A stretch of DNA of 64,000 nucleotides from Phycisphaerae bacterium (GTDB taxonomy: Bacteria > Planctomycetota > Phycisphaerae > UBA1845 > Fen-1342): NCBI GenBank assembly GCA_017999985.1, contig JAGNKU010000011.1:1-64000 (forward strand). The letters run 5' to 3'. Positions 36,447-40,428 of this stretch are shown in pieces. Positions within the stretch are counted from its first letter, which is position 1, and the number at the start of each line of letters is the position of its first letter. The translations under genes and the position numbers were made by a program. The notes beneath the pieces were generated by a model. The model had not been told where the DNA came from. It saw nothing but the letters and a program-made list of their open reading frames with translations, and did no database searches.

Positions 36447-38324
36447 CTACAGTCCCACAAGCCTCGCCAGGCTCAGCTCCAGCACCGTTACCGGGTGCTT
36501 CAGCCCGTAGGCTTCGAGCACCTCGGGGTGAATTTCGCCCATCACGCCGAGCGGTGCCCCGTCGGCCGCGTGCAACGCCGCCACGCGCCCGGGAATGTAG
36601 CTGCGATGCTCCGTGGCCTTCACCGTGTACGCCGCGCCCATCTCGTGCACAAACGCATCCGCAACCGCGCGGATGTCCGCGTACCCGACGTGCGTCCCGA
36701 TCATCGCCGCCGCGACGTAACGCTCCTCGCGCGCCCCCGTCTCCGCCGCCGCATCGACAAAACAACAATCACCGACCTCGAAGAGATACTGTGGCAGATC
36801 GTATTGCTTGTTGATCGCCAGCGTCTCCAGCAGCCCCGGCAGCAGCGACACGCGGCACATCGTCTGCTCCGTGCTGATCGGGTTGTCGATCTGCACGGCC
36901 CGCGCATCCGGCGGCACACGCCATTTCTCGAACGCCGCCGGCACACTCGTCAGCACGAGCGTCATCACCTGGTGGAAGCCGAGGCCGGTCAGCACACGGC
37001 GGGCCGTCACCGACTGCTCCTCGATCGCGCGTGGCGCCCCCACCGTGAATGTCGGCACCAGCCGCGGCGTCAGGTTGCCATAGCCATGCGCGATGGCCGC
37101 GTCTTCCATCAGGTCCACCGCGTGCATGACATCGTTGCGATACGCCGGCACGAACACGCGCAGCGTGTCGCCGTGCGGACCCTCCTCGACGCCATGGCCC
37201 ATCGATTCGAGCAATTCCGCGAGCTGCGCCGCGTTCAAGTCCGCCCCGATCGTCTCCGCGGCCAGCTTCACATCGAGCGTCAGCTCGGTCGGCCGCAGGT
37301 CCGGCGTAATCCGCACATCCCCTTCGTGCCTCCGTGCCTCCGTGCCTCCGTGCCTCTCCGCAATCACACACTCGATCTCGATCTCCGGCATGATCTCCTT
37401 GAAGCTCGTCACGAGGATGTTCAGCGCGCGGTCCACGGTCCGTTGCGACGTGCCGGTGACGTCGATGAAGAAGCCCTTGGTGTCCATCGTCACGCGCGTG
37501 CACTCGCTGTTGATGATCGGCGGCAGCGCCATGACCGTCCCCACGCCGTCGCGCAGCAGCGGGTATTTCTTCAGCGGCCTCAGCAGGTGTGCGTACGCCA
37601 CGCCGGTCTTGTGCCGCTCCAGGATTTCGCGCGGCGTCAGCGCACTGGCCGGGTCGTCCGGCGGGAATCCCAGCGGCACAAAACGCAGGCCATCGGGATC
37701 GACCGCGTCGTAGTGAAAGACGTCGCCCTTGAGCGTGTCCAAGTCAAACACGCCGATCGACGCGAGCTTGCGGTCGCGGCCCAGCGCCCAGTGCAGGTCC
37801 TCCTGGAGGTTCATGACGAGCTTGATGGTCGTGTTCGTAAGACGGACGTTGCGAATGACGGCGTAAGCGACATACGGGCGAAAGCTGTCCGGATTGGAGA
37901 GCTGCGGATCGACCTGCACGCGCAGCCGCGCCGCGTTGAGCGGATACTCGACCAGGCCGGTCTGCACGCCGAGGTAGCCGCGGATGTAGCGGGCCATGCC
38001 GCCCGGATCGAAGATGTCCGGCCGGACGGCGAGCATGTTCAGGCGGATGACCTGGCTGGTGCCGAGGTCCTTCAGCTCGTCGGGGAAGGTGCGGAAGTCG
38101 GCGCCGCAATTCGCGCACAGCAGCGGCGGCCCCTGCGCCTCAGTGCGGTCGTAGATCTTGCCGCAGACCTCGCACACGAACTCCTGCATGTCCGCGACCT
38201 CTTCGATCTCGCAGCCCAGCTTCGGCAGCATCTCCACGAGGTCGTTGACGCTCAGTCGCGTCCCATCCGCACCCGTCGCAATCCGCGCCAGCAGCGTTTC
38301 CACCGGCATATCAATGATCGGCAT
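36447..38324 (-). CDS. pheT: Phenylalanine-tRNA ligase beta subunit, archaeal/eukaryotic type
   Basis: This 625-aa beta subunit is about 170 residues shorter than the standard bacterial one. It lacks the N-terminal tRNA-binding EMAP domain and the C-terminal anticodon domain, as in the archaeal/cytosolic type. Recognisable parts are the B3/4 region (PLLRDGVGTVMALPPIINS), the B5 domain and a catalytic-like core (FTVGAPRAIEEQSVTARRVL). Unusual points are a zinc-ribbon-like insert (Cys51, Cys54, Cys70, Cys73) and an octanucleotide repeat that codes RHGGTEARRHEG around residue 325. pheS lies upstream on the same strand but about 200 bp away, with a palindromic repeat between. Confidence 0.93.
   Translation of the reverse strand: MPIIDMPVETLLARIATGADGTRLSVNDLVEMLPKLGCEIEEVADMQEFVCEVCGKIYDRTEAQGPPLLCANCGADFRTFPDELKDLGTSQVIRLNMLAVRPDIFDPGGMARYIRGYLGVQTGLVEYPLNAARLRVQVDPQLSNPDSFRPYVAYAVIRNVRLTNTTIKLVMNLQEDLHWALGRDRKLASIGVFDLDTLKGDVFHYDAVDPDGLRFVPLGFPPDDPASALTPREILERHKTGVAYAHLLRPLKKYPLLRDGVGTVMALPPIINSECTRVTMDTKGFFIDVTGTSQRTVDRALNILVTSFKEIMPEIEIECVIAERHGGTEARRHEGDVRITPDLRPTELTLDVKLAAETIGADLNAAQLAELLESMGHGVEEGPHGDTLRVFVPAYRNDVMHAVDLMEDAAIAHGYGNLTPRLVPTFTVGAPRAIEEQSVTARRVLTGLGFHQVMTLVLTSVPAAFEKWRVPPDARAVQIDNPISTEQTMCRVSLLPGLLETLAINKQYDLPQYLFEVGDCCFVDAAAETGAREERYVAAAMIGTHVGYADIRAVADAFVHEMGAAYTVKATEHRSYIPGRVAALHAADGAPLGVMGEIHPEVLEAYGLKHPVTVLELSLARLVGL
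37326..37357. repeat. Octanucleotide repeat GTGCCTCC x4 inside pheT
   Basis: Four head-to-tail 8-bp units occupy 37326-37333, 37334-37341, 37342-37349 and 37350-37357 (the last ends CTCT). They lie within the pheT coding sequence. On the coding strand the GGAGGCAC unit cycles through all three frames and yields RHGGTEARRHEG. A gain or loss of one unit would shift the frame. Confidence 0.85.
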
Positions 38325-38525: not shown

Positions 38526-40052
38526 TCACGCCTTGCACAGCGGCTCCTCCCGCAGCCATGGCATCGTCGCGTAGAACAGCTCGCCGATCGAATCCACGCC
38601 GTGGACCATCATCGCCAGCCGCTCCAGGCCCAAACCCCACGCCAGCACGCGGTCCCTGATGCCCACCGGCAGCGTCACCTCCGGCCGGAACACGCCCGAG
38701 CCGCCCATCTCCACCCAGTCCTTCCGGCTCTCCAGGTACAGCAGCACCTCCGCCGACGGCTCCGTGTACGGGAAGAAGCTCGGGTTCACCTTCACCTTCG
38801 GGAAGCCCATCTTCGCGTAGAACGCCGTCAGCGTCCCGATCAGCGTCGCCAGGCTCGCCTGCGGATCGACGATGATCCCATCCACCTGGTGGAACACCGG
38901 CAGGTGCTTGTAGTCCGCCGTCTCACGCCGGAACACCGGCCCGATCACGAAGTACTTGCCCGGCCTGCCCTGCGTGTGCCGAGCCAGGGCCCGCATGGTC
39001 GCCGCAGTCGTATGTGTCCGCAGTACCGGCCTTTGCGCTAAGTCACGGCTCCAGGTGTACTGCCACCCGGTCGAGCCGGTGTCGCCGCCGTTCTCGTGCG
39101 TCGCCTTAATCCGCTCGACGAGCGCATCGTCCGGCAGCCGGCAGCGGTCCGGCCGGGCCACGTAAAAAGTGTCCTGCATGTCCCGCGCGGGATGGTCCTG
39201 CGGCTGGAACAGGGCGTCGAAATCCCAGAAGCTCGACTCCACCCACGGGCTGACGATCTCCTCGAATCCCATCTCGAGGAACACCCGCCGCACGCGATCC
39301 AGCGTCCGCTGGAACGGGTGCTCCTTGCCCGGGTAGAGCTTCTTCGCCGCCAGCGTCACATCGTACGGCTGAATGTCGACTTCGCGCCAGCCACCCTCCG
39401 CGAGCAACTCCGGCGTAAGCTGCGTCACCTTCTTCCGCCCCTTCACACCCGCCGCCAGCAGCTTCCGCCCGTTGTCCGTGATCGCCACGTGCCGCGCGGT
39501 CCGCTCCTTCAGCACCACGAATCCTTTGCGCGGCGTAAGCAGCTTCAGGGCCTCTGTGACCGGCAGCCCCTCCGCCTCCAGCTCCGCCCGCGTCGCCACG
39601 CGCCCGCCAGCCAGTGCCTTGATCAGCCGCTCGTCCGGCTCCGGCGTACTGGTGGGCCCGGCGCCGATCAGCACGAGCCGATCGCCGTCCTTCTTCGCCC
39701 ACTGCCGCTGATTCAGCCAGCGCAGGCACCCACCGACCTGGCCGGCGTTCAGCCCGCAGTGATTGGGGATTTCCGTCAGCTTGCACGATCCTCCCTGCGC
39801 CGCCAGCACGCCCGCGACGACGCGTTCCGGCAGCGGCTGGCGGGCAAACACCTCGGCATCCGGACCGAGCCGCAGCTCCTCAAACGTCGTCTCCTCGACA
39901 ACGACGTACCCCGCGTGCCGCAGTTCGCCGCACGCCGCGGTCACGGGCGACTGATCCAGCTCCATGGCCCGCGCCAGGTCCGTAATGGCGACCTGGCCAG
40001 CGGCGTCGCCCAGGCGCCGCAGGACCTCATATTGAACTTGTGGCAGCTCCAT
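38526..40052 (-). CDS. pheS: Phenylalanine-tRNA ligase alpha subunit, archaeal/eukaryotic type
   Basis: This 508-aa protein has an N-terminal array of winged-helix domains (about 1-200, with VQYEVLRRLGDAAGQVAITDLARAM split over two motifs). This is the archaeal/cytosolic PheRS alpha layout rather than the coiled-coil bacterial one. The class II catalytic core follows, with HPFQRTLDRVRRVFLEMGF, motif 2 IGPVFRRETADYKHLPVFHQ and motif 3 AWGLGLERLAMM. It activates Phe and charges tRNA-Phe as (alpha-beta)2. ATG 40052 with AGGGA upstream is preferred to the GTG two codons earlier. Confidence 0.94.
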   Translation of the reverse strand: MELPQVQYEVLRRLGDAAGQVAITDLARAMELDQSPVTAACGELRHAGYVVVEETTFEELRLGPDAEVFARQPLPERVVAGVLAAQGGSCKLTEIPNHCGLNAGQVGGCLRWLNQRQWAKKDGDRLVLIGAGPTSTPEPDERLIKALAGGRVATRAELEAEGLPVTEALKLLTPRKGFVVLKERTARHVAITDNGRKLLAAGVKGRKKVTQLTPELLAEGGWREVDIQPYDVTLAAKKLYPGKEHPFQRTLDRVRRVFLEMGFEEIVSPWVESSFWDFDALFQPQDHPARDMQDTFYVARPDRCRLPDDALVERIKATHENGGDTGSTGWQYTWSRDLAQRPVLRTHTTAATMRALARHTQGRPGKYFVIGPVFRRETADYKHLPVFHQVDGIIVDPQASLATLIGTLTAFYAKMGFPKVKVNPSFFPYTEPSAEVLLYLESRKDWVEMGGSGVFRPEVTLPVGIRDRVLAWGLGLERLAMMVHGVDSIGELFYATMPWLREEPLCKA

Positions 40053-40428
40053 GCACACGTCCCTCGGACAGCACCCGTGACACCGGCCGGTCGCCGGTGC
40101 AGGGCTTGTCTGTATCCTAAGCGCAGCCCCGGCTCAAGTGCGAGCGAGCGTCCGGGCCAGAGTTTTCGGAACCAGGGCCGAAACCGACGAGCCGGGCGAA
40201 GCCGGGGCAAACCGGACGGCACCGACCGCTCATAAAAAATGCTCTCACAGCCCGGACGGGCCGGCTGGCGCCCTCCAGCCCGGTGGTCTGCTGCGCCTAC
40301 AGCGCATCGTGCATCGGGCCACTCAGCACGCGGGGTATAATTCAACGCTCTTGGACGCGGACGAGACGGAATCGTCCCACCGGCTGAATTCGACCCACGG
40401 CCCGGTGATCTCCTGAGGAGGAAGAAGC
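40053..40428. other. Divergent intergenic region pheS / coiled-coil gene
   Basis: There is no gene in this 376-bp region. A perfect TATAAT at 40336-40341 points toward the small coiled-coil gene, whose leader ends in AGGAGGAAG. On the pheS side, several GC-rich inverted segments (CCGG-rich) and an A6/T6 run occur upstream of the gene. I could not assign a T-box or a leader peptide. Confidence 0.5.
40336..40341 (+). promoter_or_regulatory. -10 box for the small coiled-coil protein gene
   Basis: A perfect TATAAT is followed 88 bp later by the ATG at 40429. No convincing -35 is present at 17 bp. Confidence 0.45.

Follow-up and report, generated by a model that had tools for sequence, protein, structure and literature searches.

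The pheT gene and its octamer array

The window (the whole stretch of DNA analysed, 64,000 nucleotides from a Phycisphaerae bacterium) carries on its reverse strand the genes for both subunits of phenylalanyl-tRNA synthetase (PheRS), and within the second of these lies a short array of octamers (Table 1). The pheT ORF scores 449.7 bits with the model TIGR00471 (pheT_arch, cut-off 282.65) and 137.6 with the bacterial-type TIGR00472, below that model's cut-off of 402.65, so that its product is of the archaeal/eukaryal type. A model search of the same genome found no bacterial pheT above cut-off and a protein search with PheT gave one match; for these two reasons the gene is probably the sole PheT of the genome, and with no bacterial-type PheT above cut-off there its loss should matter. 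Close relatives of this PheT occur in 27 genomes of the family; 34 genomes from other families of the same order yielded weak matches only in 30 cases (frames of 626–858 aa) and none in four. Taken with the archaeal/eukaryal character of both subunits here, this distribution suggests that PheRS was laterally replaced in the family. One of the relatives (G003, locus L022) has a single TAG in frame within the matched stretch of its PheT.

Table 1. Features of the pheT locus, with positions in the window
Feature	Position	Strand	Description
pheT	36447..38324	-	archaeal/eukaryal-type phenylalanine--tRNA ligase beta subunit, 625 aa; reading frame uninterrupted across the element
PheT loop, aa 325-336	37317..37352	-	between strands E316-324 and E337-340; longer than minimal in 8/27
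Four-box octamer element	37321..37357	-	37 nt; coding strand AGAGG(CACGGAGG)3CACGAAGG
Span named in the earlier note	37326..37357	+	GTGCCTCC x3 + GTGCCTCT
pheS	38526..40058	-	archaeal-type alpha subunit, upstream partner of pheT; NF003210 504.1 bits against a cut-off of 350

Positions 37321–37357 of the forward strand read CCTTC(GTGCCTCC)3GTGCCTCT, and the element encodes most of the stretch RHGGTEARRHEG, which is aa 324–335 of PheT when read from the ORF 36447–38324 (−). TRF reports the array at 37321–37356 (period 8, 4.5 copies, 96%). While a single GTGCCTCC unit is unremarkable in the window, with 5 matches against 3.58 expected, three or more exact tandem octamers were present in none of 100 dinucleotide shuffles of it. 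The array is real. Of the four tandem units that the earlier note had counted, three are exact; the fourth, GTGCCTCT, has one mismatch. Its further point that slippage by one unit would frameshift PheT is borne out in silico, where a gain of one unit leads to a stop after aa 350 and a loss of one unit to a stop after aa 515; a change of three units in either direction keeps the frame. The octamer is without a stop codon in all frames of both strands, and in one orientation it encodes mostly hydrophilic residues.

A hairpin loop with different inserts

The octamer peptide is predicted to sit in a hairpin loop between two strands, modelled with low confidence: the AlphaFold model of PheT has a mean pLDDT of 72.9 (19 sequences) and values below 50 at aa 327–334. 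PheT was compared across 27 family genomes, with rows taken from the best tblastn stretch per locus; the relatives compared represent other genera and are mostly MAGs, none of the 60 relatives being of the same species or genus. The compared stretch is 22–23 aa long in 19 of the 27 and 30–56 aa long in the other eight, and by alignment these eight have a loop insert of at least 5 aa and the 19 have none, which bears out the earlier suspicion that this segment is inserted when compared with orthologues. The element is thus in frame within a hairpin turn that is short in most of the family members compared, and in the window's own genome (G000) the turn has apparently been replaced as well as lengthened. 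A second insertion-prone point lies at aa 15–17 (about 38274–38282), with 11–40 extra residues in 4/27; each remaining insertion site concerns one or two of the 27 members.

In other genera this PheT loop is occupied by dispersed repeats unrelated to the octamer. Among the seven inserted loops besides that of G000, three contain a different repeat that is dispersed in the same genome (match numbers here include the PheT copy). That of G006 is an array of the heptamer ATCGTCA, with 28 matches at 18 places in G006 and none in 11 other genomes; that of G016 is a GC-rich palindrome with four matches there (at up to 3 mismatches) and one to six in each of G000, G002, G021 and G026; that of G010 is a 21-mer with 17 matches there (again at up to 3 mismatches) and occurrences in G006, G016 and G021. 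The insert of G002 opens with one octamer box (AGGCACGAAGG) and that of G026 is short. G009 and G025, two separate assemblies, have one diverged in-frame insert in common; sought as a dispersed AAGGGACG repeat it had no match in either genome, a weak negative because the regularised pattern fails to match even the insert's own PheT copy. On a PheT tree made without the loop columns, 9 of whose 24 inner branches are open, the presence of an insert takes at least five changes and its type at least seven. A single clade for the seven larger inserts (G026 left out, the group having been picked after inspection) is rejected with a p-AU of 7.9e-10.

A dispersed element with mostly fixed ends

The earlier note had also called the unit a common non-coding environmental repeat, and the same sequence is indeed found at many genomic sites, often non-coding ones. 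The pattern GTGSCTBCGTGSCTBCGTG has 29 matches in the window's own genome, or 21 arrays after merging, where base composition predicts about 0.007, and was found in 8 of 11 other family genomes searched, with a maximum of 134 matches in G021. Of 198 genomes belonging to the class, 23 carry a stricter exact doublet. These numbers are set against base-composition expectation and shuffles, the backward-read control having been dropped because the unit reversed is a rotation of itself.

All arrays of G000, G014 and G001 were fetched and, for G021, 13 among the matches listed. When the 80 arrays from these four genomes are aligned on their CAC boxes, the starting point is phase 3 or 4 in 60 and the end point phase 0 in 51, bearing in mind that degenerate letters may lengthen matches by chance (slightly different merging gives 80 arrays here and 78 elsewhere). 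The element is mostly GVAGS(CACGVAGS)n with fixed ends, three or four boxes making about 29 or 37 nt. Box counts in the four family genomes are 2:21 (incomplete by design), 3:33, 4:47, 5:3, 6:1, 7:1 and 10:1, which is not the open-ended distribution of unit numbers of phase-variable simple sequence repeats (SSRs). Outside the family they are 2:13, 3:17, 4:11, 5:1 and 9:1, from 22 of 29 doublet loci, four family loci and three near-duplicates being left out; some of the outside copies have other 5′ ends, e.g. TTCACCACGGAG. Adjacent units frequently carry different letters at the V position. A search for inverted repeats reported none inside the element, and its predicted RNA folding is no better than that of shuffles (z −0.34 and −1.32). 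By eye, two loci from different families (L038 and L049) have a similar sequence (GTGCAATCCCACGC.CTG...) after the array, perhaps the same gene end struck twice. A search of open-licence literature, partly at the level of titles only, found no publication on the repeat, its peptides or its 16-mers.

Phase-variable SSRs (contingency loci) have units of a length not divisible by three, so that a change by one unit frameshifts the gene. Could the pheT array be such a repeat, grown locally by replication slippage and still slipping, so that PheT is phase-variable or unstable? Its octamer unit is likewise not a multiple of three, its tandem core of three units is perfect, and there are the in-silico frameshifts just given. 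In contrast to such SSRs, however, the octamer copies are dispersed, mostly have defined ends, as a rule do not exceed four units and here reside in a housekeeping gene. The sequence recurs at many sites, where both its ends are mostly the same; box counts drop from 47 at four to 3 at five, unlike a slippage distribution; adjacent units differ; and off states should be lethal because PheT is apparently the only copy. We regard local slippage as very unlikely, and the freely slipping, phase-variable repeat that the earlier note had in mind is disfavoured because the copies mostly end in a fixed phase and rarely exceed four units. The array is not a free microsatellite; it is a short interspersed element with mostly fixed ends.

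Copies in other coding sequences

By a two-sided codon-usage test 26 of 78 octamer arrays are coding, in 20 gene cases. Codon frequencies for the test came from 18 long ORFs of the window, and the threshold of 0.15 bits per codon, set without calibration on negatives, has the gene identities as its check: all 20 cases are strongly matched to families, 18 of them exceeding the curated cut-off in one model or more, with the RND permease and the DnaE2-like polymerase below the cut-off of their best models. By genome the coding arrays number 10/21 in G000, 2/16 in G014, 12/28 in G001 and, among the arrays listed, 2/13 in G021; an alternative ORF rule makes 9 of the 21 own-genome arrays coding. The copies of the window's own genome lie in PheT, MurD, LysS, MnmA, MqnE, ClpB, IleS, an RND permease (two arrays) and the DnaE2-like polymerase. 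Those of G001 are in ProS, ValS (two arrays), HutU, a DHOD-type FAD/NAD protein, ClpB, CysS, Kbl and IleS (four arrays), those of G014 in IleS (two arrays) and those of G021, among the arrays listed, in ValS and a B12-dependent ribonucleotide reductase. What had looked in the earlier note like an oddity of one essential gene is therefore nothing of the kind, given that nearly half of the own-genome arrays are coding, in conserved genes, and that relatives from other genera have different repeats in the PheT loop.

Element copies in other conserved proteins are in frame and, in most of the cases compared, at an insertion. Comparison with solved structures, which covered nine of the ten own-genome coding copies (the DnaE2-like polymerase and the genes of other genomes being left out), placed arrays at insertions in PheT (2cxi), MurD (3lk7), LysS (3a74), MnmA (2der), MqnE (6xi9), ClpB (1qvr), IleS (8c8w) and, for its first array, the RND permease; the second RND array, with a net insertion of only about 3 aa, is not clearly at one. 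Judged by eye, some loops recur as array sites across genera: that after SNIGS in ClpB (G000 and G001), that before DYMAIATTR or DYLIVATTR in ValS (G001 and G021) and several in IleS. In the own-genome LysS (L156:1346-3112, −) part of an octamer peptide, ATQPRSHEATQ, is also present near aa 132–142, and GEAPAEP-type repeats adjoin the main array. An in-frame stop suspected in the own-genome IleS was rejected, the stops lying upstream of the start of an intact gene.

Since most of the genomes are MAGs and repeats are prone to misassembly, an assembly or binning artefact has to be weighed. It is highly improbable: a single frame with coding-like codon usage traverses 26 of the 78 arrays and these frames are known proteins, the diverged in-frame PheT insert is the same in the separate assemblies G009 and G025, and the pattern recurs in several genera.

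Orientation and the question of function

In 24 of the 26 coding copies CACG..AG is on the coding strand (p 1e-5), the two of opposite orientation both being at one IleS site. Stops do not explain the bias because the opposite orientation is also stop-free; the hydrophilic peptide might be its reason. Yet a bias is also seen in those of the 52 non-coding copies that lie 3′ of a gene (33 versus 12, p 0.0025), so that peptide selection alone is insufficient, and part of the bias may come from the transcript or from the insertion process. Copies 5′ of a gene are unbiased (18 versus 16; one copy may count on each side).

These observations bear on whether selection maintains the RHGGTEAR loop as a functional extension, its basic patch binding tRNA or the GGAGG of its mRNA causing pausing as an internal Shine-Dalgarno-like sequence. 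An Arg/His-rich peptide within a tRNA-binding enzyme would fit, as would the coding orientation bias and the over-representation of aminoacyl-tRNA synthetases (9 of the 20 gene cases), an enrichment that is only a guide, for it assumes 25 synthetases in 3000–4300 genes, or 2% of coding length, and the genera are non-independent. However, 19 of the 27 family PheTs have no insert there, the inserts vary in sequence from genus to genus, MurD, ClpB, MqnE, MnmA and an RND pump contain the element as well, and the orientation bias extends to non-coding copies 3′ of genes. Selection for such a function is accordingly hard to credit, and the element in PheT is most likely a functionless, tolerated passenger.

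IleS inserts and Y1 transposases

The IleS alignment (26 of 27 sequences, those above 600 aa, several cut by locus ends) has many repeat-rich inserts. Its loop before MR.VP.VIDCWWDAGSMPFAQ has at least 7 extra residues in 12 of the 26, which by eye fall into about five kinds: RHEGTEAR, GNREQGT, EPRASARA..EPRGLKSAA, GTGVPPV/GVSP and GFQPAQ. Of the kinds seen in IleS, the octamer and the G010 21-mer type are among the repeats searched for dispersed copies, as described above. IleS of six family genomes contains an in-frame Y1/RAYT-like transposase domain of roughly 150 aa, adjoining repeat-rich coding segments, at one site in G008, G011, G015 and G017 (loci L213, L215, L221 and L229) and at a second in G010 and G016 (loci L208 and L226). 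With Pfam Y1_Tnp the inserts of G008, G010 and G016 are above cut-off and those of G011 and G015 below it; that of G017 had no match at E 0.001.

Might the element be a REP-like passenger, spread by Y1/RAYT-type transposases of which some have themselves settled in frame in IleS? Y1_Tnp matches are present in 11 of 12 family genomes searched, above cut-off in 10, and in the window's own genome four of seven (G000:C1:400526, C9:109564, C12:12136 and C14:66338) are within 8 kb of an octamer array, with a post hoc p of 3e-4. That proximity is not reproduced in G014, whose one Y1 match has its nearest array more than 40 kb off, or in G001, where the contigs with the two Y1 matches carry no array. 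Nor is the element palindromic or better folded than shuffles; arrays seldom have an inverted neighbour within 250 bp (3 pairs in 78), and copy number does not track transposase number, G006 having 10 Y1 matches and 2 octamer matches. We consider such REP-like spread unlikely, and Y1 transposases are no more than candidates for the copying machinery, by their presence and, in the own genome only, by post hoc proximity. No publication joining RAYT, tRNA synthetase and REP was found in open-licence literature. A telomerase-like reverse transcriptase making octamers was considered and is unsupported because RVT_1, matched in only 4 of 12 genomes (G001, G006, G010 and G016), is without a match in the array-rich G000, G014 and G021.

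Relation to known repeats

Rickettsia palindromic elements (RPEs) are described as dispersed repeats in frame in housekeeping ORFs at solvent-exposed sites (PMC3767692; PMC10969869). In R. japonica, RPE-7 is reported in the beta subunit of phenylalanyl-tRNA synthetase and in isoleucyl-tRNA synthetase, and RPE-4 in the DNA polymerase III alpha subunit; where unlike elements occupy a single site, the authors do not decide between an insertion hotspot and the divergence of an old insert (PMC3767692). Like RPE-1 to RPE-7, the octamer element is in frame in pre-existing ORFs (PheT and 19 other gene cases). RPEs, however, are palindromic, about 100–150 bp long and of Rickettsia, and the octamer element, set apart here by description, is non-palindromic, 29–37 nt long and of Phycisphaerae; on palindrome and size it is not an RPE. 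REP and REPIN sequences are given as palindromes of 20–40 bp (PMC3733652). The octamer element, unlike these, lacks a palindrome, and it also differs from the palindromic protein-coding repeats of Wolbachia and Methanocaldococcus and from PARCEL (palindromic coding units) in that all its frames are open and no single peptide frame is prescribed.

STRRs are tandem 7-nt units dispersed in the genomes of heterocystous cyanobacteria, and Vioque in 1997 reportedly described one such heptanucleotide repeat in an essential RNA gene, rnpB, of these organisms. The octamer element resembles them as a short tandem oligomer array dispersed in the genome; it differs in its 8-nt unit, its mostly fixed ends, its usual limit of four units and its residence in protein genes. 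STRR-like unit length is found instead in the heptamer array of the G006 PheT loop.

Interpretation

The explanation that we favour, at a probability of about 0.83, is that a small mobile repeat is tolerated as an in-frame loop insert in PheT. The element would have been copied as a ready-made cassette to new sites, and an insert would survive where it alters the total length by a multiple of three and lies in a flexible loop, survival being possible because the octamer is stop-free in all frames and mostly hydrophilic in one orientation. Other copies would be removed by selection.

The PheT loop makes a case for a hotspot, with at least four unrelated repeats in one loop, each dispersed in its own genome, and with other genera bare; the IleS loop looks similar. 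It also illustrates how essential genes can accommodate a repeat with a unit length not divisible by three. A bolder, tentative possibility is that this is a distinct mobile micro-element, a stop-free 37-nt cassette usually of no more than four boxes, which favours aminoacyl-tRNA synthetases and a few housekeeping proteins and competes for their loops with other micro-elements and Y1-like domains. If so, these loops would be natural landing pads for coding selfish DNA.
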